Shown piece by piece: positions 3,515-21,130 of a stretch of 64,000 nt of DNA (within the stretch, counting starts at the first letter, position 1; each line of letters opens with the position of its first letter). The DNA is from Verrucomicrobia bacterium LP2A (GTDB lineage Bacteria > Verrucomicrobiota > Verrucomicrobiia > Methylacidiphilales > Methylacidiphilaceae), in assembly GCA_000526255.1 (NCBI GenBank), contig JAFS01000002.1, positions 1 through 64,000 of the forward strand. The letters are read 5' to 3'. The notes beneath the pieces are model-generated. The model was not told the origin of the DNA. It saw only the letters and a program-made list of their open reading frames with translations, and did no database searches. The position numbers and the translations under genes were made by a program.

Positions 3515-4189
3515 ATGCACTACCAACCCGTTCATCTGCATGAGCAAGAGTTCTGCCTTCGAACCCTCACCAGCGAAAAGGAAAGGGAGCTCGCCTACCG
3601 GTTTCGCTATCGCATCTTCTGCCGCGCGCTCCGTTGGATCTCTCCTTCCGCGCCAGGGATCGACCGGGACCGATACGACGATGGCGCGACCCTCCTCGGC
3701 GTCTTCGAGGAGTCGGGAGAGCTTCGCGCGATGGTCCGCATCCTGCCGCCGACCCGGCCCTTCATGCTGGAAAGCGATTTTGCCCCGCTACTCGCTCCCG
3801 AGCATTCGGTCCGCAAGTCTCCCGACACCGTCGAGCTCACCCGCTTCGCGGTCGATCCCGCGGCGGCGCAAACACGCGGGCTTTCCCAGAGGCTCTCCCT
3901 CCTGCTCTACAAAGGCCTCTATCAGTGGTGCCATCTCAACGAGGTTCGCTATGCCTATTTGGTCGTCGAGAAATACTTCTTCCGCGCCATCCAGCTTGCG
4001 GGTTTCCCCTGTCGCCGCATCGGTCCCCTCCACCGGCTGCCTCCGGCGAATGTCGAGTCGCTGGCTGCAATCTTCGATATGGATTATTTCGCCTCCGAGG
4101 CACGCGCAAAGCGCCCGCAATTGGAGGCATGGTTGAACGCGGCCCAGGATCAGAGCACGCGGTGCTCCATCGCGAGCGCGACGGCATGA
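3515..4189 (+). CDS. LuxI-family acyl-homoserine-lactone synthase
   Basis: 224 residues from the ATG at 3515 (an upstream in-frame TTG at 3485 would add ten). The fold landmarks of LuxI enzymes are present in order: the YRFRYRIF motif with the invariant Arg and Phe near residue 30, Trp of ALRW, the acidic IDRDRYDD region that binds S-adenosylmethionine, LRAMVRILPP (conserved Arg) and VELTRFAV (conserved Glu and Arg). Such enzymes join SAM and an acyl carrier to make a diffusible homoserine-lactone signal. It converges on a LuxR-type gene whose 3' end it overlaps by 40 bases, forming a plausible quorum-sensing pair. Acyl chain specificity cannot be read. Confidence 0.85.
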   Translation: MHYQPVHLHEQEFCLRTLTSEKERELAYRFRYRIFCRALRWISPSAPGIDRDRYDDGATLLGVFEESGELRAMVRILPPTRPFMLESDFAPLLAPEHSVRKSPDTVELTRFAVDPAAAQTRGLSQRLSLLLYKGLYQWCHLNEVRYAYLVVEKYFFRAIQLAGFPCRRIGPLHRLPPANVESLAAIFDMDYFASEARAKRPQLEAWLNAAQDQSTRCSIASATA

Positions 4190-5205
4190 GAGCGGTTGGA
4201 AGCCTGCAGCTTGCCCAGGATGTTCTTCACATGAAACTTCACCGTCGCCTCGCTGACGCGAAGGATCCGGCTCACCTCCCAGTTGCTCTTCCCCTCCTTC
4301 ATCCAGCGCAACACTTCGAGCTCCCGGAGCGAGAGCACATCGATCCCGGCCGGATTGGCGGGAATGCCACTCACCCGAATGATCGCCCCATTGAGATGGG
4401 GGATGAGATGCTGGAATACGGAGCGGTGACGGATCTCGCTTTCGAGCTCCCTTCCCGACACCGAAAAAAGCGTTGCTTGGCAAGACTTCGCATCACGAAT
4501 ACCGCAGGTCAAGCCATAAGCCATCCCGAAGTCCTTCGCTTCGCGGGTGAACGCACTAGCTTGCCTGCTCTGAGCCTCCCGGAGCACCGGAGACCAGGCT
4601 ACCATTTGGAAGGTTGCCGCATACCTCTGAACAATGGGATCGAGCCTCACATACCCATTGCAAAAGTATCGGCGCAGCCACTCCTCCGGATAGTCATGCA
4701 CGGCGCTCGTCGCCAATCGCGCCTCTTGGCGAGCCGGATCAAAATAGCTAGCCACCGCGAGGATGCTCGTCGCGGGAATGAGCTTGGCGACGCGGGCGAG
4801 AAGCTCCGGAAATTCAGCGGGATCCCGAAGGCAGGCCAACGCATAGTCGAGCTCGAGCAGCTCCCCCAACTCTCTCTTGGTCAAGAGCAGATCCAGGGAC
4901 CGGCCCGAGCGCCGCACCGGAGAAGTCGCCGCTCGCCGCAAGGCTCCGACATCTCGCCCCATGCCCGGAACCCGCAACCGCGAGGATGGGATCGTCCATC
5001 GCTCGCCCTGATGCGCAAAGGGAGCCTCCGGCGTGGATCCCCCATGGGAGGCCGGGAGAGAAACGTCCTGGGACTCTTGCAAGACGCCCTGCAGCCGAAC
5101 TGTGCCTCCCTGACCCGGCTCGTGCAGGGTGGGGGAGGGCATGGCAACTCGATTTTCCGGCCTTTCCATCTCTTGAATCTCCCCCCCGCTACCGTTCCGG
5201 TTCAT
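4150..5205 (-). CDS. LuxR-type transcriptional regulator with autoinducer-binding domain
   Basis: 351 residues as given. Residues 105-270 resemble an autoinducer-binding domain (DLLLTKRELGELLELDYA through WLRRYFCNGYVRLDPIVQR; the YVRLDPIV segment is the typical Y-x3-DP motif). Residues 285-345 are a classic LuxR HTH (LSLRELEVLRWMKEGKSNWE ... ATVKFHVKNILGKL). About 100 extra low-complexity residues precede the usual start; an internal ATG at 4962 would give a 270-residue protein of normal size. Together with the converging synthase it probably forms a quorum-sensing switch. Ligand unknown. Confidence 0.8.
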   Translation of the reverse strand: MNRNGSGGEIQEMERPENRVAMPSPTLHEPGQGGTVRLQGVLQESQDVSLPASHGGSTPEAPFAHQGERWTIPSSRLRVPGMGRDVGALRRAATSPVRRSGRSLDLLLTKRELGELLELDYALACLRDPAEFPELLARVAKLIPATSILAVASYFDPARQEARLATSAVHDYPEEWLRRYFCNGYVRLDPIVQRYAATFQMVAWSPVLREAQSRQASAFTREAKDFGMAYGLTCGIRDAKSCQATLFSVSGRELESEIRHRSVFQHLIPHLNGAIIRVSGIPANPAGIDVLSLRELEVLRWMKEGKSNWEVSRILRVSEATVKFHVKNILGKLQASNRSHAVALAMEHRVL

Positions 5206-6725: not shown

Positions 6726-7028
6726 ATGAACCATACGACCGATTCTCTCGTCATCGGGATGCGCTACGGCGTTCGGGAGTCGGTGCTCCACACGCGCCTG
6801 GAAAGCGAATCTGTCCTTCTCGACCTCGATTCCGGGAGCTACTTCTCCCTCAACTCGGTGGGGAGTTGGATCTGGGACCGACTGATGGAGGGGCCGAGAA
6901 CCGCTGAGGAGCTCATCGCTGAGATCACGGAAGAGTACGAGGTTTCGCGGGAGAGCGCCGAGCGGGATATCCTGGAGCTGCTCCGGGAGCTCGTCACCCA
7001 CAATCTCCTCGAACCCAGGGATCGATGA
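6726..7028 (+). CDS. Lasso peptide B1 protein (PqqD-like RiPP recognition element)
   Basis: 100 residues, the size and pattern of PqqD-type recognition elements: a beta-hairpin with VLLDLDSGSYFSLNSVGSWI, then WDRLMEGPRTAEELIAEI and a helix ESAERDILELLRELV. In split lasso systems B1 binds the leader peptide and delivers it to the B2 protease and the cyclase. Its stop overlaps by ATGA the start of a decayed B2-kinase remnant, and the cyclase gene follows. A second copy with a deletion lies at 9867. Confident as to family; the partner B2 is presumably the gene at 10118 or 15522. Confidence 0.85.
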   Translation: MNHTTDSLVIGMRYGVRESVLHTRLESESVLLDLDSGSYFSLNSVGSWIWDRLMEGPRTAEELIAEITEEYEVSRESAERDILELLRELVTHNLLEPRDR

Positions 7029-7252
7029 GCCGAGCCTCCAACGGGGAGGAGAGCCATGCCTTGGCACCCTGGCTCCAAGAGAATGTCGGATCATGCCCTT
7101 TCCGGATCGCCCGCCTCCCTCAAGACGGCGATCACGACCTTGCCGGTGCAATCGATTTCCTTCCCCCAAGCGCGCCCAAGGCGCTCGCTTGGGCAGAGAG
7201 GGCCGAGACGCGGCTGATGACCTCCTCCCCCGCCCCTCCTCACTCGATGTGA
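7025..7252 (+). pseudogene. Decayed remnant of a B2-kinase pair
   Basis: 75 codons starting in ATGA overlap with B1, exactly as the intact B2 does after the second B1. The first 19 residues (MSRASNGEESHALAPWLQE) align with the B2 start MSQPSEHTQARTLPSWSEL. From about 7117 the DNA (CTCAAGACGGCGATCACGAC) matches the HprK-like kinase gene near 10650 (CTCAAGCCGGCTATCACGAC) and continues similarly for about 45 bases. This looks like a deletion that fused the beginning of B2 to the N-terminal part of the kinase gene. No B2 catalytic residue and no Walker motif remain. Confidence 0.6.
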
Positions 7253-7310
7253 CTGCTAATTTCGCCGAGAGGGACAACCGACTGTCCTCGGTCATGGGGA
7301 GCGGCTGACG

Positions 7311-9260
7311 ATGGGCGGCGTCGCGGGTATCATCCACTGGGGCTTAGAGCCCCCATGCCCCGGCGGGATCGAGGGCATGCTCGAGGCCATCCGCCACCGC
7401 GGGCCAGACGGCCTCTGGGCCGCGACCCGAAGGAATGTCGCACTGGGCCATGCTCGTTTCCTCCTCCGCGAAGGGGAGAGGAACAGGACGCAACCCGTCT
7501 GGCTGCCGGACGGCTCCGCAGGCTTGGTCGCCGACGCTCGGCTCTACAATCGAGCCGAGCTCCTCCGCATTCTCGGCGCCGTTTCCTGGCTCCGGGACCT
7601 CCCCTCGGATGCGGAGCTCCTCCTTGCCGCCTTCGAGCGCTGGGGGGAGCGATGCGTCGCTCGGCTCCGCGGGGATTTTGCCTTCGCGGCCTGGGACGAA
7701 GCGAAGGGGCGCCTCTTCGCCGCCCGCGACCCCTTTGGGGTCAAGCCCTTCTTCTACCATGAGGATGGCACCGCAATCCGTTTTGGCTCTGAGCCCAAGG
7801 CGCTGCTGCCCTTTCTCGGCGCAGCGGCAAAGCCCCATGACGGCGTGATCGCCGATTACCTCGTTCGCGGGGTCCCCCGCGCCTTCGAAGAGACCTTCCT
7901 CCAGGGTATTCATCGCTTGCGAGCGGGGCATGTCCTGGTCGCGACCAACCAGTTCTCACGCCAGAACCGCTACTGGCCAGAAGAAGGCTCGCCACCCGAC
8001 TTTCACGGCTCGCCCGCCGAATGCGCCGAGCAGTTCTACTCTCTCTTTCGCGAAAGCGTCCGCCGCCGGCTCGAATCAGACTTCCCAGCCGCCCTACACC
8101 TAAGCGGCGGCTATGATTCCTCCTCCGTCGTCTTGGCCGCAGCGGATCTGTACAAAACCCAGGCGCCCCCTGCACCTCTTCCTCTCACCGTCTGCAATAC
8201 CTACCCGGGATTTGCGTGTGACGAGAGCGCTTATAGCGCTGCCGTCGTCGCGCAAGCGGGCTTTCCTCATCTCAACGTCCCGAGCCCCTGCGAGGATTTC
8301 ACACCGGGCCTCCTGTACGAGTTCTGGAAGGCGGACGGCCCGACGGCCGAAATCGCTTGGCGGGGACGAGAGGCATTAGCCTCTACCTTGCGGAATCGCG
8401 GGGTGAAAACGCTCCTGACCGGCCTCGGGGGAGACGAGCTCATCTGGGATCCAGACTATGAGCTCGATCTCTGGCATTCGGGCCGCTATCTCGATGCCCT
8501 TCTCTATTGCCTCAACGACCCGAGGGTCGTTTGCTCGGAGCATAGCAGCAAGACGCACTTGAAGCGGCTCCTGCGCCAAGGCGTCCCGCCGGAAATTAGA
8601 AGCTTCCTCCGGCGCTGGCGAAAAAGGCGCGAAGAAATTCCGGGCTGGATCAATGCCCGGCTCGTGGAAGAGAACAGATTTTACATCGATCGAGAGCCTT
8701 TCGGCGAGACGAAGCCCGCTTTCCCAGACCTGGCCCGGAGCGAGATTTTCCGCTGGCTCTCCAACCCGGCGTTTCACTGCGTGCTCGAACAGGGAGAACG
8801 TCTCTCCGCCTACATGGGCGTAGAATTGCATCATCCCTTCCTCGATCAGGATCTCGTCGCATTCGTCTTGTCCATACCCTTTGAAACGCGCCTACGACTG
8901 CCTGGACCGTTCAAGACCCTTCTCACCGCGGCACTGGGTAATCGTCTGCCGGAGAAGGTGAGGCAGCGTGGCTCGAAAGCCTCTTTCAACGACTATTGCC
9001 TAGCCCTGCTCGTGACAGGCCGTCGCGGACTCCTGAACCAAGTGTCGAGCCAAGCCTCGTTAGCCTCCGAACGATATGTCGTCCCGGAAATTGCGCTCCA
9101 GGAGTGGAGCCGACCGATCTCCTCCGATCTCTCCTGGTATGGGGGCGCTCGCCCCCTTTGGCAGCCTCTTTTTTTAGAAATTTGGTTGCAAGACCTTCCG
9201 AATCTGGTATCAAGTTTTGCACGATTTAGTTCTGTCCCTGGAGTGTGCGAGCCGAACTAA
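7311..9260 (+). CDS. Lasso peptide macrolactam synthetase (C protein, asparagine-synthetase-like), copy 1
   Basis: 649 residues. N-terminal class II glutamine amidotransferase-like domain (MGGVAGIIHW, RHRGPDG, FAFAAWDEAKGRLFAARDPF, FGSEPKALL) lacking the catalytic Cys-2, then an ATP-pyrophosphatase domain with the loop LSGGYDSSSV and the GLGGDELIW motif. Lasso C proteins adenylate the ring-forming Asp/Glu side chain and join it to the core N-terminus, so loss of glutaminase function fits. Followed after 32 bases by a precursor gene with the lasso leader motif, and preceded by B1. Glutamine-dependent asparagine synthesis is unlikely given the context and the missing Cys. Confidence 0.88.
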   Translation: MGGVAGIIHWGLEPPCPGGIEGMLEAIRHRGPDGLWAATRRNVALGHARFLLREGERNRTQPVWLPDGSAGLVADARLYNRAELLRILGAVSWLRDLPSDAELLLAAFERWGERCVARLRGDFAFAAWDEAKGRLFAARDPFGVKPFFYHEDGTAIRFGSEPKALLPFLGAAAKPHDGVIADYLVRGVPRAFEETFLQGIHRLRAGHVLVATNQFSRQNRYWPEEGSPPDFHGSPAECAEQFYSLFRESVRRRLESDFPAALHLSGGYDSSSVVLAAADLYKTQAPPAPLPLTVCNTYPGFACDESAYSAAVVAQAGFPHLNVPSPCEDFTPGLLYEFWKADGPTAEIAWRGREALASTLRNRGVKTLLTGLGGDELIWDPDYELDLWHSGRYLDALLYCLNDPRVVCSEHSSKTHLKRLLRQGVPPEIRSFLRRWRKRREEIPGWINARLVEENRFYIDREPFGETKPAFPDLARSEIFRWLSNPAFHCVLEQGERLSAYMGVELHHPFLDQDLVAFVLSIPFETRLRLPGPFKTLLTAALGNRLPEKVRQRGSKASFNDYCLALLVTGRRGLLNQVSSQASLASERYVVPEIALQEWSRPISSDLSWYGGARPLWQPLFLEIWLQDLPNLVSSFARFSSVPGVCEPN

Positions 9261-9280
9261 CGTTTTGCCGAAACTGCTAG

Positions 9281-9290
9281 AGAGGAGGAA
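9281..9290 (+). promoter_or_regulatory. Strong Shine-Dalgarno of precursor A1
   Basis: AGAGGAGGAA ends two bases before the ATG at 9293; AGGAGG is a full match to the anti-SD. It is among the strongest ribosome sites in the window and fixes the start of a gene easily missed for its size. Confidence 0.75.
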
Positions 9291-9292
9291 AG

Positions 9293-9466
9293 ATGAAACA
9301 ATCCAACAAGATGTTACCCAAGTCCAGAGATTGGAAATCCACTGAGTCAAAGAGTTCCTATGTTAGGCCGATGCTGGTCTTCCAAGGCGCCATGGCTAAG
9401 GTTACCCAAAAGTCCGGCAGCGTTCCGGATGCTCCTGTGTATCCAACCCCAACTAGACGGGGTTAA
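9293..9466 (+). CDS. Lasso peptide precursor A1
   Basis: 57 residues, TAA at 9464-9466. The leader has the canonical lasso signature Tyr23-x2-Pro26-x-Leu28-x3-Gly32-x5-Thr38 (YVRPMLVFQGAMAKVT). With Thr at the usual penultimate leader position, the core is residues 40-57, KSGSVPDAPVYPTPTRRG: 18 residues with an Asp at core position 7, allowing a seven-residue macrolactam ring between the N-terminal amine of Lys-1 and Asp-7. Lys at position 1 is unusual, and a shift of the cleavage site by one cannot be excluded. Pro-rich, cationic, ending in Gly. Lies directly after the cyclase gene with a perfect SD. Function of the product is unknown. Confidence 0.85.
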   Translation: MKQSNKMLPKSRDWKSTESKSSYVRPMLVFQGAMAKVTQKSGSVPDAPVYPTPTRRG

Positions 9467-9866
9467 TCCCGCTTATCCGACGATTTCCACATAGGGGTTT
9501 GCCGCTTCCGCTTGCAAGTTGGGCGAGGCGGGCGTGCTACTCCTATCAGAGCGCGCTAGGCTCGCTTGGAACGTGGTGTTCATCGCCGGGCGTAGAATTG
9601 ACTTTACTTCTGTAATCACCGCAGCCTAATCGGCAGGCTCTCCGCGAGCCGTTGCCGCGAATTCTCTTCTCTTAACAACTGGATCATTTTCGCCCAGCGC
9701 CTTCCCCAGACGTTGGGTAAGCGCTCCGGCTTCTGCCCGTTCCTTTCCTCAGAAAGGCTCTTCCGTGCGCAAGAGCGCTCCCTATCACCTACACAAATAG
9801 TTCTTTAGATTCTTATTCTCGACACTCCGCCGCGCTCCGAGGGAGATCGCTACGGGATCAGCTATC
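9467..9866. other. Non-coding region between precursor A1 and the truncated B1
   Basis: No gene seen. Its 3' end (TTCTTTAGATTCTT at 9801-9814, then TCGACA) resembles the leader of the first B1 gene, so it is probably the duplicated upstream region. No clear terminator after A1. Confidence 0.5.
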
Positions 9867-10121
9867 ATGCTTCGTGTCGTTATCAGGATCTGCTATGGCG
9901 TTCGGGCATCGGTGCCTCACACGCGCCTGGAAACCGAATCGGTGCGTCTGAGTCTCGATTCCGGGCGCTGCCTCTCCCTCAACTCGGTAGGGAGTCGGAT
10001 CTGCAACCGCCTGGCGGGGCGGCCGAGCCCCCCCCAAGAACTCTTCGCCGGCATCGAGGAAGAGTACGAGGCTTCGCGGGAGATCGCCAGTGGCAATCGC
10101 CTCGAACCCAGGGATCCATGA
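9867..10121 (+). pseudogene. Truncated second copy of lasso B1 (PqqD-like)
   Basis: 84 codons, clearly homologous to the B1 gene at 6726 (GVR-S-HTRLE-ES, SLNSVGSRICNRL, EEYEASRE, LEPRD) but lacking about 13 residues of the third helix: SRESAERDILELLRELVTHN in the intact copy is reduced to SREIASGN here. The deletion is in frame and the ATGA overlap with the following B2 is kept. Several conserved positions are also changed (Trp to Arg and Cys). It may no longer bind leader, with B1 at 6726 or 18136 taking over; translation may be retained only to couple B2 expression. Confidence 0.65.
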
Positions 10122-10549
10122 GTCAACCCTCCGAGCACACGCAAGCCCGTACCTTGCCATCGTGGTCCGAGCTCTTCCTGGTTGCCGAGGCGTGGCTCAC
10201 AATTCTCTGGGTCGCGGTGATCCTTCGAACGCGCTGGCGCAAGCGTCTCTTCGAGAGCCCGCCTCCGTCGGCAGAGCGGCGACTGACGCAAGCCCAAATG
10301 CAGCGCGCCGCTCGGTTGGTGAATGGGGCAGCGAACCATCATCTCAAGCCGATGACCTGCTTGGAACGCGCATTGACGCTGCAACGCGTTCTGGCGCGGC
10401 GCGGCTGCCGAGCCATCCTGCGCTTCGGGGTCCAGAAGGATGAACAGGCCCACTTGGGGGCGCACGCTTGGCTCGAGGGGGTTCCCGGGCTGCACGATCC
10501 GTTGGCCTCCCGCTTCGTCCTGCTCCAACCCCTTCGGGAACGCCCATGA
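10118..10549 (+). CDS. Lasso peptide B2 leader protease (transglutaminase-like)
   Basis: 143 residues, the usual size of a free-standing B2. A hydrophobic N-terminal helix (LTILWVAVIL) is followed by the cysteine-protease core: MTCLERALTLQRVLARRG with the catalytic Cys, AHAWLEG with the catalytic His, and LHDPL with the Asp. It removes the leader from the precursor after recognition by B1. Start and stop overlap by ATGA with the truncated B1 and the kinase, so the three are translationally coupled. Probably acts on A1, the precursor upstream. Confidence 0.85.
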   Translation: MSQPSEHTQARTLPSWSELFLVAEAWLTILWVAVILRTRWRKRLFESPPPSAERRLTQAQMQRAARLVNGAANHHLKPMTCLERALTLQRVLARRGCRAILRFGVQKDEQAHLGAHAWLEGVPGLHDPLASRFVLLQPLRERP

Positions 10550-11391
10550 GCGAGCGAGCTCCCATCCGGATCGGCATGCGGGCTTCGCCCGCGTTCGTCG
10601 GCATCCTCGCGGGAGCTCGGATCTGGAGCAACCGCACGATCGCCGGGCTGGCTCAAGCCGGCTATCACGACCTCGACGTCGAAGTCGCTTTTCTCTCCCG
10701 GGATGATCCGGAAGCGCTGCCACCGCACGGGAAGCGCGCGGCGGAAGGCGAAACGATCCCACTGCCCGACGCCACGGGCCTGACCGGATGGATCGCCAAG
10801 GACGGCAGCTCGGGCGCGATCGAGGAGGATCTCACCGCTCCGCAGGTCCGTGCGGTCCAGCTCCGTCGCCTTCTCCCCTTTTTGGCCGCCCTCCAAGGAC
10901 GAGTCACCCTCCATGCCTCGGCCGTGGCCTCCCCGAGGGGCGTGCATGCCTTTGTCGGGGAGAGCGGCGCCGGAAAATCCACCCTTGCCCGCTGCCTCGC
11001 AGACCTCGGCTGGTCCATCACAGCCGACGACCTCTTGCCCTGCCGGATGCGGGGGGGCACGGTCACCATACCCCTTGGCGAGGGCCGATTTCTCCCTCTG
11101 CGGGGAATCCATTTTCTCGCCCGGCAGGAGGGCTTGCTCTGCGTCCGCCACACTGCGCTGCACGGAGCGGATTGCCTGAAACGGCTGCTGGCGCATGGCT
11201 TCGGCGAGATCGGCCTACGGAGAGCCTGGGCGGCGCAATTCCGCCTCTACGAGAGCATCGCACGCACCGTTCCCGCCTACGCCCTGGTCGAACCAGACGC
11301 GCTGCCGCGCCTCCGAGAGAGCGCCTACGAGGTGGGCAGCCTGATTGACGAAGAAGAGGCCCCGAACAGGTCTCATTTCGGGGTTGGCTGA
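10546..11391 (+). CDS. HprK-like kinase of the lasso cluster, copy 1
   Basis: 281 residues. A P-loop FVGESGAGKSTLARCL near residue 140, followed by GWSITADDLLP, is typical of HPr-kinase-like proteins; LHASAVASPRGVHAF precedes it as in this family. In characterised lasso clusters (paeninodin type) such kinases phosphorylate a Ser at the C-terminal end of the peptide. Here the neighbouring precursor ends in Gly, with Ser at core positions 2 and 4 and Thr at 13 and 15, so the target must be elsewhere or phosphorylation is not its role. Overlaps B2 by ATGA. Confidence 0.75.
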   Translation: MSERAPIRIGMRASPAFVGILAGARIWSNRTIAGLAQAGYHDLDVEVAFLSRDDPEALPPHGKRAAEGETIPLPDATGLTGWIAKDGSSGAIEEDLTAPQVRAVQLRRLLPFLAALQGRVTLHASAVASPRGVHAFVGESGAGKSTLARCLADLGWSITADDLLPCRMRGGTVTIPLGEGRFLPLRGIHFLARQEGLLCVRHTALHGADCLKRLLAHGFGEIGLRRAWAAQFRLYESIARTVPAYALVEPDALPRLRESAYEVGSLIDEEEAPNRSHFGVG

Positions 11392-12449: not shown

Positions 12450-14135
12450 TCATTCGGCAGGGACAAACGCCCTCTCCTCCTCGCCAGCTCCCACCAAGGC
12501 GCCATCCTTGAGCTGGAGCACCCGATCCGCAAGCTCCAGGCTTGCCGGCCGGTGGGTGATCAGCAGCACGGTCCGCCGCCGGAGCAGCTCCCGGCACTCC
12601 TGCAAAAACTCGCGCTCCCCCTCGGGATCAAACATTGCGGTCGCCTCGTCGAGGATCAGAATCGGCGGCTCCTTCAAGAGTGCGCGGGCCAGCGCCAACC
12701 GCTGCTGCTGCCCCCCGGAGAGCCGCACGCCTCGATCGCCGATCCACGTTTCGTAACCCTGGGGCAATCCGAGGATGAAGTCGTGCGCGCGGGCCGCCTT
12801 GGCCGCCGCCTCGATCTCCTGCTGGGTGGCCTGCGACCGACCATAGGCGATGTTGTCGCGGACGGTGGCATGGAAGAGGAGCACATGCTGCGGCACGGCT
12901 CCGATCTGGCTGCGCAGGCTGCGCAAGGAGACCGTGGCAATATCGACGCCGTCGACAAAGATGCTCCCCTCGGAAGGCTCGTGGAGTCGCAGGAGCAGGT
13001 GGCCGATCGTACTCTTGCCCGCCCCATTGGGGCCCGTAATCGCGACCGTCTCCCCAGCACCAATGCGGAGATTGAGGCCCTTGAGCGCGGGCGGGCGGCC
13101 CGGAAAGGAGAATGTCACCCCGCGAAATTCAATCTCGCCCCGGATCGCGGGCATCTGCCTCCTCTCCCCTCGCGGCTCAGGTTCCTCGGCCAAGGCCTCG
13201 GCCAGCCGACCCAACGCCCCGCGCGCCCGCTGGGTCTGCCCGTAGAGATCGGCGAGCCCGGCCACGGGTCGCGTCATCAGCTGGCCGTAGAGCAGAAAGC
13301 TCACAAGCTGCGACGCGGCAAGGCCCCCGTGGCCGAGGAGACCGTGTGCCAGCCAGAGCACCAGGACCACCGCCGCCCCCGCGAGGAGCTGGGTGGCCGG
13401 GCCCAATGCGGCATAGAGGCGACGCTCCCTGGCACTCAGCCGCACGATCTGCTCGATCTGCTCCCGGTACCGCTGCGACTCCTCCGGCTCGCGCGTGAAG
13501 ATCTTGATCACGGGCAGCATGCCGAGGTTTTCCTCGGCCAGGGCGATCGCCCGGCCATGCTCCTCCTGAAGCTGCCGCGCCAAGGGCCGTACCCGCCGCC
13601 CGACCAGCTTGATCCCCAGGGAGAACAGAGGAATCAACAGCGCGGCGAGCAGCGCCAGGAAGGGTTGGATCCGGAGCATGCAGACCAGCGCGCCGCACAC
13701 GGTGAGAAGGAGCGGTGCGATGCCCAGAGCGGAACCGCTGAGATAGCCGCTGATGACGGAGACGTCGTGCGTCAGCAGCGCGAGCGCATCGCCTTGCCGC
13801 CGCTGATGAAAGAATCCGAGCGGCAGAGCCTGGAGATGGTCGTAGAGGCGGATCTTCAGGTCGGCCGCCAGCCGGTCGGCGGCCGCTCCGAGCACGGAGA
13901 CATTGACAAATTTGAGCAGGGCCTGCGCCGCCAATACCGTCAGCAGGGTCAGGAAGAGCGTCTCCGGATGCGCCCATGCGGCCAAGTGCCCCGGAAGAAA
14001 GAGTTCGGCGAGCTTGCCTCCGAGCCAGGGCACAGCCAAGGCCAGGGCGCTCTCGGCCACCATCAGCCCCATCCCGAGGACCAGCGTCCCACGGCAGGGC
14101 CGGGCAAAGGCGAGCAACATCCGGATCTCCTTCAC
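12450..14135 (-). CDS. ABC transporter, fused permease and ATPase (lasso peptide exporter D)
   Basis: About 561 residues from GTG at 14135 (ATG at 14120 also possible). Six hydrophobic segments in the first 310 residues, then an ATPase with Walker A TGPNGAGKSTIGHL, signature RLSGGQQQRLALARALL, Walker B PILILDEATAMFD and the H-loop LLITHRP. Typical half-transporter of the MsbA/peptide exporter type, used in lasso clusters for export and self-immunity. No N-terminal C39 protease. Downstream of the nucleotidyltransferase on the same strand, and convergent with the methyltransferase. Probably serves both precursors, as it is the only exporter present. Confidence 0.85.
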   Translation of the reverse strand: MKEIRMLLAFARPCRGTLVLGMGLMVAESALALAVPWLGGKLAELFLPGHLAAWAHPETLFLTLLTVLAAQALLKFVNVSVLGAAADRLAADLKIRLYDHLQALPLGFFHQRRQGDALALLTHDVSVISGYLSGSALGIAPLLLTVCGALVCMLRIQPFLALLAALLIPLFSLGIKLVGRRVRPLARQLQEEHGRAIALAEENLGMLPVIKIFTREPEESQRYREQIEQIVRLSARERRLYAALGPATQLLAGAAVVLVLWLAHGLLGHGGLAASQLVSFLLYGQLMTRPVAGLADLYGQTQRARGALGRLAEALAEEPEPRGERRQMPAIRGEIEFRGVTFSFPGRPPALKGLNLRIGAGETVAITGPNGAGKSTIGHLLLRLHEPSEGSIFVDGVDIATVSLRSLRSQIGAVPQHVLLFHATVRDNIAYGRSQATQQEIEAAAKAARAHDFILGLPQGYETWIGDRGVRLSGGQQQRLALARALLKEPPILILDEATAMFDPEGEREFLQECRELLRRRTVLLITHRPASLELADRVLQLKDGALVGAGEEERAFVPAE

Positions 14136-14154
14136 TGGTCCACATCCCCCCCGA

Positions 14155-15315
14155 TCATGCAGAGATCCCCCGCCAGCTCCTCCGCAGCCGCGCTCCCGCC
14201 CGTCGCAAGTAGAGCCAAGGCAGCCAGCGCGGTTTGGCTCCCGCATACTTCCACCGCATGTAGGGCTCAGGAGGAAAACAGAGCTCCACCAGGAACTGGA
14301 GCTTGTTTCGCATGCCGGCGATCGCCTGGAAATCGGCCCGGAACCGGCAGGAGGCGGACGCCTGGAGATAGCGATCGGCGCGTCCCGGAGACCCCGGCAG
14401 GGACAGCGCCCGATCGACGGATTCCGGCAGGAGGGTGCCGAAGAGCGTGCGGGCCCGCTCGACGCTCTCCCGGCAGGTCATGCGCAACCCCTTCCGTTCC
14501 GCAAGCTCCGCGAATTCCCGGCACTCCGAAGCTGAGAGTTTTCCCAGGAGACAATGGATGTCGTAGAACCAGATCAACCGATCGCCGCCATAGTGGCGCA
14601 CGCCATCCACGTAATAGGGCACCTGCTGATGAACGGCCGGATGGAGACAGGCGAGGAGAAGCGCATAGATCCGCCGGACGGCGATCGCCTCCGTGCTCAA
14701 GCCCGGGAGAGTCTCGGTTTCAGCGCAGACTTCCTCATACGACAAGAGATGCGACAGGAACTCGGAATTGCTGATCCGCCAGTGCAGATCAAGGACATGC
14801 TCCTGATGGGAAACCGAATCGATCCACTCAAATCCCGCCTCATAGGTGATAAACTCCCCGCTCACGTTGGGCTGGCGGATGAGCCCCAAGGATCCGAGCT
14901 CCCGGATTGCCCGATCCCGCTGATCGGGAGGAATGACCAAATCGGTATCGCCCCGCGTGCGCAAGAAGGGCGCGGGGTAGAGGGAGTAGGCCAACGCCGT
15001 GCCTTTAAAAAGAACGGGCCTTGCTCCGATCTTTGACAGTCGTCCCAGCGCTTGCTGCAAAAGCCATCGGTGCCGCAGCTCCCACATCGCTTGCGCGAAG
15101 GCCTGATTCCGGCAGGCCTCGGAAACGGCTCGCGGCATGCCCCACCCACCATCCCCAGATCCGGTCTCCTGCAGCCGGTGGTGCACCAGCGCCTGAACGC
15201 CGTGGTAGGCGCTCCGCTCCAGAAAACGGCTCGCGAACTCCTCCCGCTCCCGAGATGGCCACTGGGGGTTTTCCCCGCGCAAGATCGCGCAGATCAGTTC
15301 TTCCACGTCCGTCAT
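14155..15315 (-). CDS. Nucleotidyltransferase-like protein (lasso-associated NTase)
   Basis: 386 residues from the ATG at 15315. The central GARPVLFKGTALAYSLYP and RTRGDTDLVIPP motifs, with the G-x-D-x-D pattern, match the nucleotidyltransferase family (Pfam NTP_transf_5) that accompanies kinase-containing lasso clusters. In the paeninodin-type model the protein is found beside the kinase and ABC exporter; its reaction is not well established. Here it precedes the exporter gene by 19 bases. Start at 15351 is less likely. Confidence 0.75.
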   Translation of the reverse strand: MTDVEELICAILRGENPQWPSREREEFASRFLERSAYHGVQALVHHRLQETGSGDGGWGMPRAVSEACRNQAFAQAMWELRHRWLLQQALGRLSKIGARPVLFKGTALAYSLYPAPFLRTRGDTDLVIPPDQRDRAIRELGSLGLIRQPNVSGEFITYEAGFEWIDSVSHQEHVLDLHWRISNSEFLSHLLSYEEVCAETETLPGLSTEAIAVRRIYALLLACLHPAVHQQVPYYVDGVRHYGGDRLIWFYDIHCLLGKLSASECREFAELAERKGLRMTCRESVERARTLFGTLLPESVDRALSLPGSPGRADRYLQASASCRFRADFQAIAGMRNKLQFLVELCFPPEPYMRWKYAGAKPRWLPWLYLRRAGARLRRSWRGISA

Positions 15316-15521
15316 GGCAGCCCCCTGCCCATCCCCGGAGCCAGGAATCAACTACTTTCCGGCTCCACAGACCCGCACGGCCATCGGATCCCAAAAACCA
15401 TTCCTCTTCTCCTTTCCCTCGTCCTTCTTCGCCCTTACAATTGCGCCCCATACAACGGCATGCGCTCGACGACAAGAGGTTTGCCATTCGATAGCATGTT
15501 TTACGACGACCGTCTCTCTCC

Positions 15522-16109
15522 ATGGATCGCATAACCACTCTTTCTGCGAATCGTCCTTCTCCAGCCTCCTCCGGAGATCCCACGACCACGGCTCGATACG
15601 ATACGGGAGGCTCCTGCGGACCCCTCTCCCGGCAAGCGGCCACGCCGACAGGACGCATCCTCCCGCTCTTCCTTGCAAGATCAACCTGGGTCCGCCTCCT
15701 CCACCTCGGTCCCCGGAAGCTGGCAGCACTCGCTCTCGCCTATCCCTCTCTTTGGACGGTCCGCATCGGGCTCCGTCGGCTGCCGTTCTCCCGCTTCCGA
15801 AGCCTTCTCGCCCGGGTTTCTCCAGCGGGCCTTCTCCCTCCCCTTCCCCTCTGCTGGGCCATCGAAGTTCTCTCCCGGCGCCTCCCCTGGTCGAGCTGCC
15901 TCATTCAGGCGGCGGCGGGTCACCTCCTCCTCGCCCTCTCCGGTACCCCGAGCCAGCTCGTCATCGGAGTCCGCCAACACGGAGCGGAGCTTGAGGCGCA
16001 TGCCTGGCTCGAAAGCGGCGGACGCATGATTCTCGATCCGATGCCGCAGGGGCGGTTCCAAAAGATCGACAGGATCGGTTCAGCGCACCCTTCCGGGACG
16101 CTCACGTAG
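15522..16109 (+). CDS. Lasso peptide B2 leader protease, second copy
   Basis: 195 residues with an unassigned Ser/Pro-rich N-terminus of about 50. The B2 core follows: hydrophobic helix HLGPRKLAALALAYPSLW, PWSSCLIQAAAGHLLLAL (catalytic Cys), AHAWLESGG (His) and MILDPM (Asp). Much diverged from the copy at 10118. It converges on the second cyclase gene on the opposite strand and probably processes precursor A2. A start further downstream is possible. Confidence 0.75.
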   Translation: MDRITTLSANRPSPASSGDPTTTARYDTGGSCGPLSRQAATPTGRILPLFLARSTWVRLLHLGPRKLAALALAYPSLWTVRIGLRRLPFSRFRSLLARVSPAGLLPPLPLCWAIEVLSRRLPWSSCLIQAAAGHLLLALSGTPSQLVIGVRQHGAELEAHAWLESGGRMILDPMPQGRFQKIDRIGSAHPSGTLT

Positions 16110-16225: not shown

Positions 16226-18130
16226 TTAGCCCGTTCCCCGCTTGGGACGCGGAGGCCGCTCCATCCAGCCCTTGCCCGATTCGAGTCCCCGGAGCCAGAG
16301 AGCGAGAACCTTGGCCCGCCAGAGCGTCATGCAATCTGCTGGGTTCGGGGAGCCCTGGTAGCGATGCCAGGCCTTCTCGAGCTCTGCCCACTCCCAATAG
16401 GGTTCCAGGAGAGGCTTGTCCTCCTTCATTAGCCCTTGGAGCTGCGCTTGGTCATGCCGGTGGAGCAGGAGGGTCAAGGCCTGGCTCTGATCGCTCTTGT
16501 CCCGGCGCAGCCGGACCTTCTCGGGCACGATCCCCCGCACCGCTTCCCGCAACACATGGCGGGTCAGCCCATCCCGGAGCTTCTGGGCGCTCGGCAGCCC
16601 CAGGCACCATTCGACCACCTCGGGATCGAAGAAGGGGTGGGCCGGCTCGATCCCCCACCAGGCCGCCTCCTTGTCGAGCCCTTCAAAGATCGTCGCCAGG
16701 GTCGCAGGCTCCAGACGATGACGGTGCATCCGCTGGACCGAACCGCTGACGGCAAGGCTCAAGCGCCGCGCGGCAAAGATCCGATCGGCAAGATGGTGCC
16801 TTTGGGCGAGCCCCCGACGCAAGAGCGGAGGCAGCCCCTCTCCCCCCGCTTGCCGAATCCGGAACCATGCTTGGCGTGCCCATGCCGGCAGCGCGGGCCG
16901 GAGCACGTGCGCCCTCCAGACATCCGCCGCCGAAAAGCCGTGCCCGGCAGCCAAGAGCCGCGCCTCCCGGGAGAGCGTCCGCCATCTTCCCCCCCGAGCG
17001 AGCTCGGCAAGGCGCTCCACTCCGTGAGAGACGACCGTATCCCCATCAAACCCATCGAAGATGCGCTCCACTCCCGCGTCTGCTGCCTCCCGATAGAGCG
17101 CCACGTTGAGAAAGAGGTTGTAGCCGAGGACAAGCCCGTCCTGCCGATAGAGCCACTGCTCGATCTCCCCGAGCGGATCGAGCAAATCCGCCCGAACCCG
17201 ATGGCACCGCAGGCCATGATGGGCGACCACCGCCTCGAGAAAGGCGCTCTCGTCGCATTCCGGGATCGTCGGAAAGACCGCGGCAATCACCTCCGGCCCT
17301 CTCCCATCCGCCAACTGCTCCGCAAGCAGCCCCGTAATCGAGGAGGAATCGATCCCGCCACTCAGGAGAACCCCGGCGCGCCCTCCGGACCGGAGTCGGC
17401 GGACCACCGCGCGAGAGAGCCTCCGGTGGAGCTCCTCCGCCATCTCCCGATCGTTCGCCTCCCCGATGGTTGCAGGGCCAAGCGTCCAGTATCGTTGACT
17501 CCGGACTCCCTCTCGGTCGACCTCCATCCAGTGCGCCGGCGGGAGCCGAAAAATCCGCTCATAGGGCGTTTCCGACGCCTCCGCCGCCATTCCGGCCACG
17601 AAATCGACGATCGCCGACTCCCTTGGCCGACGGGGCACCTCCGGCAGGGCAAAGAGCCCCTTGATTTCCGAGGCAAAGGCGAAGAAGCCACCGCCTCCGG
17701 GCTCCCAGAAATAGGAAAGGGGCCGAACGCCGAAGCGATCGCGCGCCAAGTAAAGGATTCCCCGCCGCGCGTCCCAGAGCGCGAAGGCATATTCTCCCTG
17801 CAGGCGTTCGGCGCAGCCGCGCTGCCAGCGCGCATACGCCGCCGCCACCAGCAGCTCCACCGAGGCTTCCGGAGGAAGATCGAGCTCTGTCCGCAGCTCC
17901 TCTTGATTATCGATCCGGCCATCGAAGACTACGGGCGCTTCCGGCTGCGGAGACCTCGGGCCCACGCCCGAGGCGCCTGGGGGCGCGCCCTCTTCGAAAA
18001 GGCCAAGCCCCTCCAAGGTGAAAAATCGCCTCCCGCCCTTTCCGCGGTGGGCGAGGGCTTCCGCCATCGGGAGCAGGGCCGATTCGAAGGCTCCCCCGCC
18101 GGGGGACCAGATACCTCCAATCGCCGCCAT
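16226..18130 (-). CDS. Lasso peptide macrolactam synthetase (C protein), copy 2
   Basis: 634 residues. Amidotransferase-like domain (MAAIGGIWSP, AHRGKGG, EYAFALWDARRGILYLARDRF, FASEIKGLFALP), again without Cys-2, and a synthetase domain with VLLSGGIDSSSITGLL and FDGFDGDTV. Diverged from copy 1 throughout, so this is not a recent duplicate. It closes the A2 ring in the predicted scheme. Last gene of the - strand operon kinase, radical SAM, A2, B1, C; five bases after the B1 stop. Confidence 0.88.
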   Translation of the reverse strand: MAAIGGIWSPGGGAFESALLPMAEALAHRGKGGRRFFTLEGLGLFEEGAPPGASGVGPRSPQPEAPVVFDGRIDNQEELRTELDLPPEASVELLVAAAYARWQRGCAERLQGEYAFALWDARRGILYLARDRFGVRPLSYFWEPGGGGFFAFASEIKGLFALPEVPRRPRESAIVDFVAGMAAEASETPYERIFRLPPAHWMEVDREGVRSQRYWTLGPATIGEANDREMAEELHRRLSRAVVRRLRSGGRAGVLLSGGIDSSSITGLLAEQLADGRGPEVIAAVFPTIPECDESAFLEAVVAHHGLRCHRVRADLLDPLGEIEQWLYRQDGLVLGYNLFLNVALYREAADAGVERIFDGFDGDTVVSHGVERLAELARGGRWRTLSREARLLAAGHGFSAADVWRAHVLRPALPAWARQAWFRIRQAGGEGLPPLLRRGLAQRHHLADRIFAARRLSLAVSGSVQRMHRHRLEPATLATIFEGLDKEAAWWGIEPAHPFFDPEVVEWCLGLPSAQKLRDGLTRHVLREAVRGIVPEKVRLRRDKSDQSQALTLLLHRHDQAQLQGLMKEDKPLLEPYWEWAELEKAWHRYQGSPNPADCMTLWRAKVLALWLRGLESGKGWMERPPRPKRGTG

Positions 18131-18135
18131 CGGAG

Positions 18136-18426
18136 CTACCGCGTGGCCCCGACCCGCCGCACCATGCGCCGTTCCAGCAACTCTTGGAGCAGAGCCTCGG
18201 TATCCGCCGAGCAGAGGCTCTCCTCCACCTCAAACTCCCCGACCAGCGCCGCTATCAGCGCCTCGAGGGAGATCGGCTCGGCCAGCAGCTCCCAAACCCG
18301 GGTCCCCACGCCATCAAGCTGGTAGTAGATTCCCTCCTCCGTATGGAGGATCACCACCGACTTCTCGACCATGGTCGAGACCGCTTCGCTGGCTCTCTCC
18401 AACAGATCCTCGTTGGCAACGCTCAC
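18136..18426 (-). CDS. Lasso peptide B1 protein (PqqD-like), copy 3
   Basis: 96 residues from a GTG at 18426 preceded by two GGAGG sites (start chosen for this; a longer frame to 18537 exists but has no ribosome site). Pattern of a recognition element: VVILHTEEGIYYQLDGVGTRVWELL, then ISLEALIAALVGEF and TEALLQELLERRMV. Lies between precursor A2 and cyclase C2 and should bind the A2 leader. Confidence 0.8.
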   Translation of the reverse strand: MSVANEDLLERASEAVSTMVEKSVVILHTEEGIYYQLDGVGTRVWELLAEPISLEALIAALVGEFEVEESLCSADTEALLQELLERRMVRRVGATR

Positions 18427-18550: not shown

Positions 18551-18742
18551 TTAGCCGAGGACGGTGACGGTCGTGACCGTGCTTCCTGTCAGAAGCGTAT
18601 CGGTGAGCAAGAGGCCGCTAGCCTTCGTGAGCTCTTCGACCGACCCATGAACAATCAGCTTTGGCGCCTCGTAGGGCTTCCGACTCCGATTCGCTCGCCG
18701 GACCGCCTGATTGAGTTCCCGCTTTTCCCTATCGTTCTTCAT
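18551..18742 (-). CDS. Lasso peptide precursor A2
   Basis: 63 residues; ATG at 18742 preceded by AAGGAGGAAACG. Leader signature Tyr24-x2-Pro27-x-Leu29-x3-Gly33-x5-Thr39 (YEAPKLIVHGSVEELT), spacing identical to A1. With Thr penultimate in the leader, the core starts at Ala41: ASGLLLTD gives an eight-residue ring from Ala-1 to Asp-8, followed by a 15-residue tail rich in Thr, Val and Leu that ends in Gly. The core is hydrophobic with no charge except the ring Asp. It lies between a radical SAM gene (23 bases) and B1, in one operon. Confidence 0.88.
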   Translation of the reverse strand: MKNDREKRELNQAVRRANRSRKPYEAPKLIVHGSVEELTKASGLLLTDTLLTGSTVTTVTVLG

Positions 18743-18765
18743 CTCGTTTCCTCCTTTTCTTCTGG

Positions 18766-19830
18766 TTAACCGCACCCCTTGCCGCAGCCGGCCAAGCCCG
18801 CGCCGATTGCCCCCTCCTCCCGCAGCGTCCGCGCCGCTGGCCGCACATCCGCCGGCTTCCCGGCCCTTCTCGCGAGCAGGTGGGCCGCCAGCACCAGGCG
18901 GATCTCTGGGTCCGCAAGCCTCTCCCGGATTTTGGTTACAAACGACGGATCGTTGGTGAGCTTCAGGCAAACTTGACAGATGCCGGAAAATCGTTGGGAT
19001 GAGAGGCCGTTGCCTTGCTCGATCAGCTTCCCCATCGCCCGCGGTCCGATGGCGTAGATCGCATGGAGCACCGGATCGGAAGCTCCCCGAGCGAGGATCC
19101 GATCGAGCGGCTCCTCGAGCGCATTCCCCAGGATGAGGGGAGACCCCGGCTTGGCCTCGAGCGAGGGACCGCAGCAGGCATAGACCGTGCCATCCCAACG
19201 GACGACCGGCAGGACGACCGAAGGGCAGAATCCCGCCGGGGGACCGCTCGACCAGTCGAAGCTTTCCACGGGCAGGCTGGCGGCCCGTCCAACCGGCAGC
19301 ACCTCCGCCGCCTCGTGCCCTTGGGCAAACGAGGCAAACTCCGCATAATAATCTGCACGTGCCTCCGGAGAATCACTAGCCCGGAAAGCGGAACGGATGA
19401 TCGGACGAAGCCCCAGGTTCGCCGCCGTTTGGGCCACTCGGACCGCAGCCTCCCTCCGCAAGAAGACCTCATGGAAGGGATCCCAGCTGATCACCAGCTG
19501 CCGGAGGCCCGCCTCCGCCAGCTCCGAGAGCACAGGCTCAACCCGCTCCTCGTCCTTGGCCCAGCCGCAGCCGGTCACAAGCGAAACGCGTAAGCCGAGT
19601 TGGCTTGCCAGGGCGACCAGCCTCTGGATCTCCTCCGGGTAGAGCAGCGGCTCCCCGCCGGTGAAGCAGAGCTGCGTGCTGACCCGTGCCGCCTCCCCGA
19701 TGTAGCGTGCCGCATCCCGGGGATCCATCTTTCCCTCGGCCCCGGGAGAAGAGCGGGTGACGCAGTGGCCACACGCGAGCGGGCAGCGTCGCGTATACAT
19801 GAGGCCCACGGTCTTCCAGGCAAAGCTCAT
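18766..19830 (-). CDS. Radical SAM enzyme with SPASM-like C-terminus, beside precursor A2
   Basis: 354 residues. CPLACGHC near residue 16 is the C-x3-C-x2-C cluster motif, and CFTGGEPLLYP is the GGEP SAM-binding motif. The C-terminal third has further cysteines (YACCGPS, GICQVCLKL, and a GCGKGCG end) as in SPASM/twitch proteins that modify ribosomal peptides. ATG overlaps the kinase stop (ATGA). It immediately precedes A2, which makes the peptide its likely substrate; Thr- or Val-side-chain chemistry is possible but unproven. A peptide-modifying radical SAM enzyme is not a standard lasso component. Confidence 0.8.
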   Translation of the reverse strand: MSFAWKTVGLMYTRRCPLACGHCVTRSSPGAEGKMDPRDAARYIGEAARVSTQLCFTGGEPLLYPEEIQRLVALASQLGLRVSLVTGCGWAKDEERVEPVLSELAEAGLRQLVISWDPFHEVFLRREAAVRVAQTAANLGLRPIIRSAFRASDSPEARADYYAEFASFAQGHEAAEVLPVGRAASLPVESFDWSSGPPAGFCPSVVLPVVRWDGTVYACCGPSLEAKPGSPLILGNALEEPLDRILARGASDPVLHAIYAIGPRAMGKLIEQGNGLSSQRFSGICQVCLKLTNDPSFVTKIRERLADPEIRLVLAAHLLARRAGKPADVRPAARTLREEGAIGAGLAGCGKGCG

Positions 19831-20792
19831 CTTGCTCCTGTTGCTTCGAGCTCGAGCTGGCGGTAGAGCAGCTCCAAGACCGCTTCCAGCTTGCTCCGGT
19901 CCCTGGGAACATCGAGCCCGACCACCGGAAGCTCCCGGGACAGCTTTCCAAGCCCCTCGAGGTCTGGTCGATCGCACCAGCGAAAGCGCGCGATCCGATG
20001 CGCACAGAGCTGGAGCAACGCTTCCGGCAATGGTAAGAGGCGGATAGCGGGTGCGGACCAGCCGGGCACTGGCCGTAGCAGGCAGAAAAGCGCTAGCGGC
20101 ACGGGTTCCCCAGCCGGGTCTTCCACCCGGCGGCCCAAGGATTCGGGCAACCGCTCGGGCCGGTGGTAGGGATGGGCGGGCAACCCGTTCCACTCCCCAT
20201 GGGAACAGACGATGGGGAGCTTATCGTCGCAGACCAAGCGATGGCCGCGGCTCATCGCAAAGCCGGTCAAGGTCGTCTTTCCGGCGCCGCTGCCACCGAG
20301 GAAGGCGACCCCGCGACCCCCGACCTCGATGCAGCCCGCGTGGAGGAGGGTAAATGCCCCAGCAGAGGAGAGGAAGAGCGGGAGGACCTGCTCCAAGAGC
20401 CAGTAGGGGAGAACGCCCTGATGCTCTGGATGCATCCTCCAGCGGATCTGCTTCGACGCTACCTCCCAGTCAAAGATCCCACGGCCGTCGACCGCCATGC
20501 GGATCCTTTGGGGAGCCCCTTCTTCCGCATAGCGCGCAAAGCGGACTCGCCGCCCTTGGCATCGACCCTCCGAACGGTCCAGCGGCTCCTCTCCCTCCCA
20601 GAGCTCACCCTCCCGAATCGTGAGCGGTCGTTGCCCCCGGCCTCCCCAAAGGCCAGTGGGTAAGGGAGGGAGTGGCGCCGGCAGCCGGATCGGCACTCCA
20701 TAGGCAAAGGTCACTGGCTCGGGCCTGTCGGGATGGCGGCATGGATCTTCTACCAGGGAGGGGAAGGCGCTCTCGTGGATTCGACACAGCAT
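19827..20792 (-). CDS. HprK-like kinase of the lasso cluster, copy 2
   Basis: 321 residues from the ATG at 20792. P-loop FLGGSGAGKTTLTGFA near residue 190, preceded by LLHAGCIEVGGRGVA and followed by HRLVCDDKLPIV, as in HPr-kinase-like proteins. Distinct from copy 1. First gene of the - strand lasso operon, overlapping the radical SAM start by ATGA. A2 contains many Thr and one tail Ser that could be targets, but ends in Gly rather than Ser. No Shine-Dalgarno is seen; the predicted promoter is only 10 bases upstream. Confidence 0.75.
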   Translation of the reverse strand: MLCRIHESAFPSLVEDPCRHPDRPEPVTFAYGVPIRLPAPLPPLPTGLWGGRGQRPLTIREGELWEGEEPLDRSEGRCQGRRVRFARYAEEGAPQRIRMAVDGRGIFDWEVASKQIRWRMHPEHQGVLPYWLLEQVLPLFLSSAGAFTLLHAGCIEVGGRGVAFLGGSGAGKTTLTGFAMSRGHRLVCDDKLPIVCSHGEWNGLPAHPYHRPERLPESLGRRVEDPAGEPVPLALFCLLRPVPGWSAPAIRLLPLPEALLQLCAHRIARFRWCDRPDLEGLGKLSRELPVVGLDVPRDRSKLEAVLELLYRQLELEATGAR

Positions 20793-20802
20793 CAATTGAA
20801 AG

Positions 20803-20831
20803 CGCGTACCTAAAGATATCTTTACTGTCAA
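20803..20831 (-). promoter_or_regulatory. Promoter with palindromic operator for lasso half-cluster 2
   Basis: On the - strand a perfect TTGACA (20831-20826), 17-base spacer, and a weak -10 TACGCG (20808-20803). The spacer holds the 14-base perfect palindrome TAAAGATATCTTTA (20811-20824), well placed for a repressor or activator. A transcript would start close to the kinase ATG at 20792. Confidence 0.45.
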
Positions 20832-21130
20832 TAGGAAGTCACCGTTCCATTCGCTGCCTACGGACGGGCGGCCTGGGGTGGCGGCGGCGCTCCATTTGCC
20901 CGTTACGAGGAAAGCGCAGTCACCGGCCCGATCCGCCAGCCAGCCAAGCTGACCGGCACACCGCATGCAGCGACAACGCGGCGGCGGAGGAGCGGTTCAC
21001 CCGTCACGGGAGAAGGTTCGTTGGTGGCGGAGGCCGGATTCCTGCCAAATACGTCAAGGGCATCCGAACTGCACTCGCTCCGAAACGCAACCACTTCCAA
21101 CAGGACACCAACTAAGCATGCCCTAGCCAA
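20832..21130. other. Spacer between lasso locus and polysaccharide locus
   Basis: No convincing gene on either strand. Marks the change from the lasso operon to the more AT-rich glycosyl/methyltransferase region. Confidence 0.4.

Follow-up and report, generated by a model that had tools for sequence, protein, structure and literature searches.

A radical SAM enzyme gene with probable kinship to EpeE-type peptide epimerases is located in a predicted lasso peptide operon of Methylacidiphilaceae

The sequence analysed, referred to here as the window, is the whole 64,000-nucleotide stretch at the start of contig JAFS01000002.1 of Verrucomicrobia bacterium LP2A. The nearest named homologs of the radical SAM enzyme (rSAM) described here are in Methylacidimicrobium tartarophylax and a Candidatus Methylacidiphilaceae MAG, which places the window in Methylacidimicrobium. 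Members of Methylacidimicrobium are acidophilic methanotrophs of the Verrucomicrobiota; for the second genus of the family the label Methylacidiphilum was assigned by inference. The genes and features at the locus are as follows.

19827-20966, minus strand: HprK-like kinase (lasso-type tailoring kinase family), with the His, P-loop Lys and Asp-Asp motif retained
18766-19830, minus strand: radical SAM enzyme (rSAM), EpeE/YydG-like, 354 aa, ATG start
18551-18742, minus strand: predicted lasso precursor A2, 63 aa
18478-18507, minus strand: A2-B1 intergenic hairpin, perfect 11-bp stem, no T-run
18136-18426, minus strand: B1, PqqD-type RiPP recognition element (RRE), GTG start
16226-18130, minus strand: C, lasso cyclase (asparagine-synthetase-like)
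15522-16109, plus strand (opposite to the operon): B2, transglutaminase-like leader peptidase
14155-15351, minus strand: NTP_transf_5 nucleotidyltransferase, of a Pfam family also found beside the Methylacidiphilum rSAM
12450-14246, minus strand: ABC exporter (MsbA-like)

The kinase, rSAM, A2, B1 and C genes follow one another in this order on the minus strand as one operon, and the B1 (PqqD-type), B2 (transglutaminase-like) and C (asparagine-synthetase-like) components of a lasso pathway are all present. The ABC protein is the probable exporter of the pathway product. A preliminary description had placed rSAM and A2 at 18551-19830, with rSAM overlapping the upstream kinase and ending 23 bases before A2, and these coordinates are right throughout: the end of the kinase and the start of rSAM share 4 bp (ATGA), as they do in all three species measured, and 23 bp separate the rSAM stop from the A2 start both in the window and in the congener G004. 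In two of four species (G001 and G006) the reading frames of rSAM and A2 have 4 bp in common. An AGGAGG-type ribosome-binding site precedes A2 in each of the four species, the one in the window being strong (aaaaggaggaaacgagATG). This spacing or overlap, taken with the ribosome-binding sites, supports co-transcription and, in two species, translational coupling. The hairpin between A2 and B1 was considered as a rho-independent terminator and rejected for want of a T-run; it is possibly a transcript-stability or processing element, and is missing in the nearest relative, G004, where the A2-B1 gap is shorter.

A2 passes the NCBIfam lasso leader model L3 (27.8 against a cut-off of 19), and its leader carries YEAPKL...G...LT with Thr at position -2. 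Homologs were found at the same position in three congeners, the four orthologs having in common the leader PYxAPxLxVHGSVExxTK and the core [A/N/S]xGx[L][LVI]TDT-LL-[TS]-GS-x-[VI]-[TS]-T-x-[TS]-[VL]. Given the Thr at -2, the core would start at Ala, Asn or Ser, and Asp8 would close an eight-residue ring; the predicted core in the window is ASGLLLTDTLLTGSTVTTVTVLG, with an Ala1-Asp8 ring. Asp8 is invariant in the four species and is the sole acidic core residue except for Glu23 in one of them. By leader model, Thr at -2 and Asp8, A2 is thus a predicted lasso precursor, for which a threaded macrolactam is expected. The tail beyond Asp8 (TLLTGSTVTTVTVLG) had been described as Thr/Val-rich, in agreement with the nine beta-branched residues among its 15. 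No Cys, Trp, Tyr, Phe, His, Lys, Arg or Met occurs in the A2 cores of the four species, which end in LG, LG, SP and EP and have no conserved C-terminal Ser. A2 looks to be under constraint (dN/dS about 0.23-0.55 by NG86, on a short sequence) and rSAM is under purifying selection (about 0.10-0.27 in Methylacidimicrobium pairs); together with the A2 homologs in place, these values show that neither is a chance ORF.

For rSAM, the Pfam Radical_SAM match is significant (54 bits, cut-off 29.5) and the SPASM match falls just below its cut-off (21.1 against 21.5), so the earlier label 'SPASM-like' was a fair one. The top NCBIfam profile is that of the YydG peptide epimerase, TIGR04078 (E 3e-21, 76 bits); as this is far below the curated equivalog cut-off of 300 bits, rSAM is a relative of the YydG equivalog and not a member. 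The Methylacidiphilum homolog scores 112 bits against the same profile. A PDB sequence search with rSAM returned EpeE entries first (E 8e-13), at an identity of only about 17%. The fold was modelled with AlphaFold2 from nine homologs at moderate confidence (mean pLDDT 69); confidence drops to low values at residues 177-205, adjacent to the auxiliary cluster. In a Foldseek search with this model the top nine chains were all EpeE (TM 0.65; next enzyme 0.51), and in VIA-align EpeE again ranked first (Z 20.7; next 17.9).

The cysteines of the active site are invariant in the nine homologs: C16, C20 and C23 of the SAM cluster (CxxxCxxC), C202, C219, C285 and C288 of the auxiliary cluster, and Cys220, the putative hydrogen donor. 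In EpeE the proposed donor is Cys223 and the targets are Val36 and Ile44 (PMC8326336). C219-C220 of rSAM align to EpeE C222-C223, and the second Cys of this CC motif is found in every aligned close YydG-like relative, while SPASM-type controls, mostly from related genomes, have Gln, Pro, Ile or Ala there; one weak relative (L078) likewise has Cys. The sequence alignment shows no conservation of EpeE Asp210 in rSAM; this residue carries a mutation in one crystal structure. In sequence, predicted fold and active site alike, EpeE/YydG is the nearest characterised relative of rSAM, which is best placed with the EpeE-type peptide epimerases. The Methylacidimicrobium rSAMs also have a Cys-rich GCxxGCG near the C-terminus (GCGKGCG in the window, 18766-18810), which the Methylacidiphilum homologs do not have; this tail is unexplained and counts as such against an epimerase assignment, as do the low YydG score, the low identity to EpeE, the non-conserved Asp210 and the limited confidence of the model.

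Three other chemistries were considered for the enzyme and rejected: a thioether of the sactipeptide or ranthipeptide kind, as the four A2 cores contain no Cys; a cross-link through Trp, Tyr or Lys, on core composition; and B12-dependent methylation, on the domains of rSAM, in which Pfam detects no cobalamin-binding domain. The enzyme may instead modify A2 by some other reaction at C-alpha or C-beta (an ether cross-link through Thr or Ser, dehydrogenation or C-methylation), with a change in mass. We regard this as unlikely but worth keeping in view, since Thr and Ser are plentiful in the A2 tail, many C-H reactions are known from rSAM/SPASM relatives and the YydG model score is below the cut-off. 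Against it, all Fe-S ligands and the hydrogen-donor Cys of the epimerases are retained, EpeE is the best match in both sequence and fold, the high-ranking NCBIfam matches of rSAM include no family that forms ethers or transfers methyl groups, and the make-up of the cores rules out thioether and aryl links.

We therefore favour, with some reserve, the reading that the operon makes a lasso peptide epimerised by an EpeE-like rSAM, with D-residues in the A2 tail. The preliminary description had pointed to C-H sites in that tail and had not specified the chemistry of the SPASM-like enzyme; the genetic tie between enzyme and precursor is retained here, and an EpeE-type epimerase fits better than a generic SPASM C-H modifier. 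In the proposed pathway, B1 would bind the A2 leader and rSAM, acting on the linear precursor ahead of B2 and C, would abstract the C-alpha hydrogen from at least one beta-branched residue of the core, most likely within the tail stretch GS-x-[VI]-[TS]-T-x-[TS]-[VL], where the Val or Ile at core position 16, beta-branched in all four species, is the first candidate, followed by positions 19 and 21; Cys220 would then give a hydrogen back on the other face, leaving a D-residue. B2 would next cleave off the leader and C would join Ala1 to Asp8 with the tail trapped, after which the ABC protein would export the product. Further decoration may come from the kinase and perhaps from the nucleotidyltransferase. 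The sequences show how the genes are arranged and that they co-occur, the enzyme family with its predicted fold and active-site cysteines, and cores that offer neither Cys nor aromatic residues as targets; A2 as the substrate, epimerisation as the reaction, the residue changed and the order of steps are inferred. An epimerised peptide made in H2O has the same mass as the unmodified one, whereas in D2O it is heavier by 1 Da per site. A comparison of masses in H2O is thus unsuited to an epimerase, and the earlier proposal that an unchanged mass would refute modification by rSAM does not apply.

Among 13 genomes of the family, rSAM occurs in a lasso context in four Methylacidimicrobium genomes, and the same four have A2 and the cyclase. 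Three congeners gave no match to rSAM, which is weak evidence of absence: G005 is complete, G002 is 83% complete, and in G003 the contig stops within the kinase homolog. Across 388 Verrucomicrobiota genomes, close members of the rSAM family are confined to Methylacidiphilaceae, with three weak matches elsewhere; a single-protein genome scan with rSAM, which misses relatives near 35% identity, gave two close relatives and one weak match. The suggested search for the same adjacency in other lasso clusters found no comparable rSAM near 13 other verrucomicrobial lasso B2 loci, some of them on short contigs. A motif resembling rSAM beside one other lasso locus (L065) proved to be RlmN-like. None of ten annotated plasmid rSAM neighbourhoods contained a lasso cluster; an eleventh plasmid record was unannotated.

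Five Methylacidiphilum genomes (L027-L031) have an rSAM 34-38% identical to that of the window. Its gene lies between those for a kinase and a PqqD protein, ordered as in the window, and a divergent NTP_transf_5 gene adjoins the set. Upstream lie two tandem genes for small proteins of 110-176 aa with an LE[SA]R-LFAA motif and V/T/I/L/G-rich tails, for which Pfam gives no match. No lasso cyclase was found genome-wide in these five genomes and no B2 in the four covered by the B2 search. The loci are possibly an uncharacterised RiPP-like system, and they look like the rSAM-adjacent cases among RREs surveyed with RRE-Finder, in which about 300 lasso-type RREs beside rSAM enzymes were counted as false positives (PMC7470986). 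Beyond its own genus, the window kinase finds its closest matches in those of Methylacidiphilum, with weak tree support for the grouping (0.43). One in-frame TAG interrupts the kinase frame in G007 (L028, 6910-7938) and in G001 (L025, near 12690), perhaps through decay or sequencing error.

Homologous operons without any lasso genes had been named in advance as evidence against the pairing; with their discovery in Methylacidiphilum, the notion of rSAM as a lasso-specific enzyme is refuted, and the set of rSAM, kinase and RRE is not tied to lasso chemistry. Action of rSAM on A2 is spared by this result, because the Methylacidiphilum loci carry other candidate substrates. The same loci show that the family has other substrates if the small proteins adjoining the homolog are taken as such, and rSAM might accordingly act on another peptide and merely be located in the lasso operon. 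We consider this improbable: the LE[SA]R-LFAA proteins have no homolog in the Methylacidimicrobium genomes, A2 lies immediately downstream of rSAM and overlaps it in two species, and four genomes have rSAM, A2 and C as a set. That rSAM is an inactive relic, as stops in the kinase frames of some relatives might suggest if the loci are decaying in part, is very improbable for a gene that is intact in nine genomes, with invariant cysteines and the low dN/dS given above.

The Methylacidiphilum loci bear on the origin of the operon: an older RiPP-like module was probably taken up by the lasso pathway, or is shared with it, with transfer possible in either direction. More speculatively, and with doubt prevailing, an older module of HprK-type kinase, EpeE-like epimerase, RRE and NTP_transf_5, serving long LE[SA]R-LFAA precursors in Methylacidiphilum, may have been combined with B2 and C in Methylacidimicrobium. 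The outcome would be a first class of lasso peptides epimerised by a radical enzyme, in which D-residues of an aliphatic tail replace bulky plugs in holding the thread.

Lasso tailoring so far comprises phosphorylation, methylation, hydroxylation, citrullination and others. Our searches of the open-licence literature gave no lasso peptide described as tailored by a radical SAM enzyme, in keeping with the earlier remark that SPASM enzymes are not standard in this role; the pairing is unusual, and its novelty is to be read as 'not found' and not as proven. To our knowledge the only lasso epimerase reported is MslH, which belongs to another enzyme class. A 2026 review of interlocked peptides lists lasso modifications, names epimerisation only for MS-271 and nowhere uses the term 'radical SAM' (PMC13352647).

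Each of the known systems closest to the locus differs from it in part. With EpeE/YydG of the Bacillus subtilis epipeptide it has in common the fold, the cysteines of the SAM and auxiliary clusters and the hydrogen-donor Cys next to a cluster ligand, and the action of that enzyme on Val and Ile in a short precursor is likened to the reaction proposed for A2. In contrast, the lasso genes B1, B2 and C and a kinase adjoin rSAM here, there is no YydF-type precursor, and the low identity and the non-conserved Asp210 set the two enzymes apart. In the MS-271 pathway MslH epimerises an amino acid on the precursor before maturation (PMC9266682). MslH is metallophosphatase-like and acts reversibly on a C-terminal Trp, whereas here the enzyme is of the radical SAM class and the tail is aliphatic. 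Paeninodin and pseudomycoidin (PadeK/PsmK, PsmN) likewise have an HprK-like kinase and a nucleotidyltransferase by a split B1/B2 lasso system, to which rSAM is added here. The paeninodin-type kinases phosphorylate the C-terminal Ser of the precursor (PMC9266682), which A2 does not have, so that a role of the paeninodin type is doubtful for the kinase here. The Methylacidiphilum locus agrees in gene order, nearby NTP_transf_5 and rSAM, and differs in having no lasso cyclase and two LE[SA]R-LFAA proteins in place of the lasso precursor.

If the proposal is true, lasso peptides would gain an irreversible route to D-residues, through an rSAM epimerase that acts ahead of threading. It would permit a test of whether backbone stereochemistry aids the threading of a plug-less tail, and would show how RiPP modules recombine between classes.

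The window also contains a separate second lasso cluster, cluster 1, at 6726-11391 on the plus strand, without an rSAM.

6726-7028, plus strand: cluster 1 B1
7311-9260, plus strand: cluster 1 C
9293-9466, plus strand: cluster 1 precursor A1
10175-10489, plus strand: cluster 1 B2 domain
10468-11391, plus strand: cluster 1 kinase

G004, the closest relative (L024, about 3800-4700), is without the segment matching about 6.4-14.2 kb of the window, so that cluster 1 is missing together with the greater part of the ABC exporter, and the A2 cluster is kept. A cluster related to cluster 1 is present at the start of contig C10 of G001.
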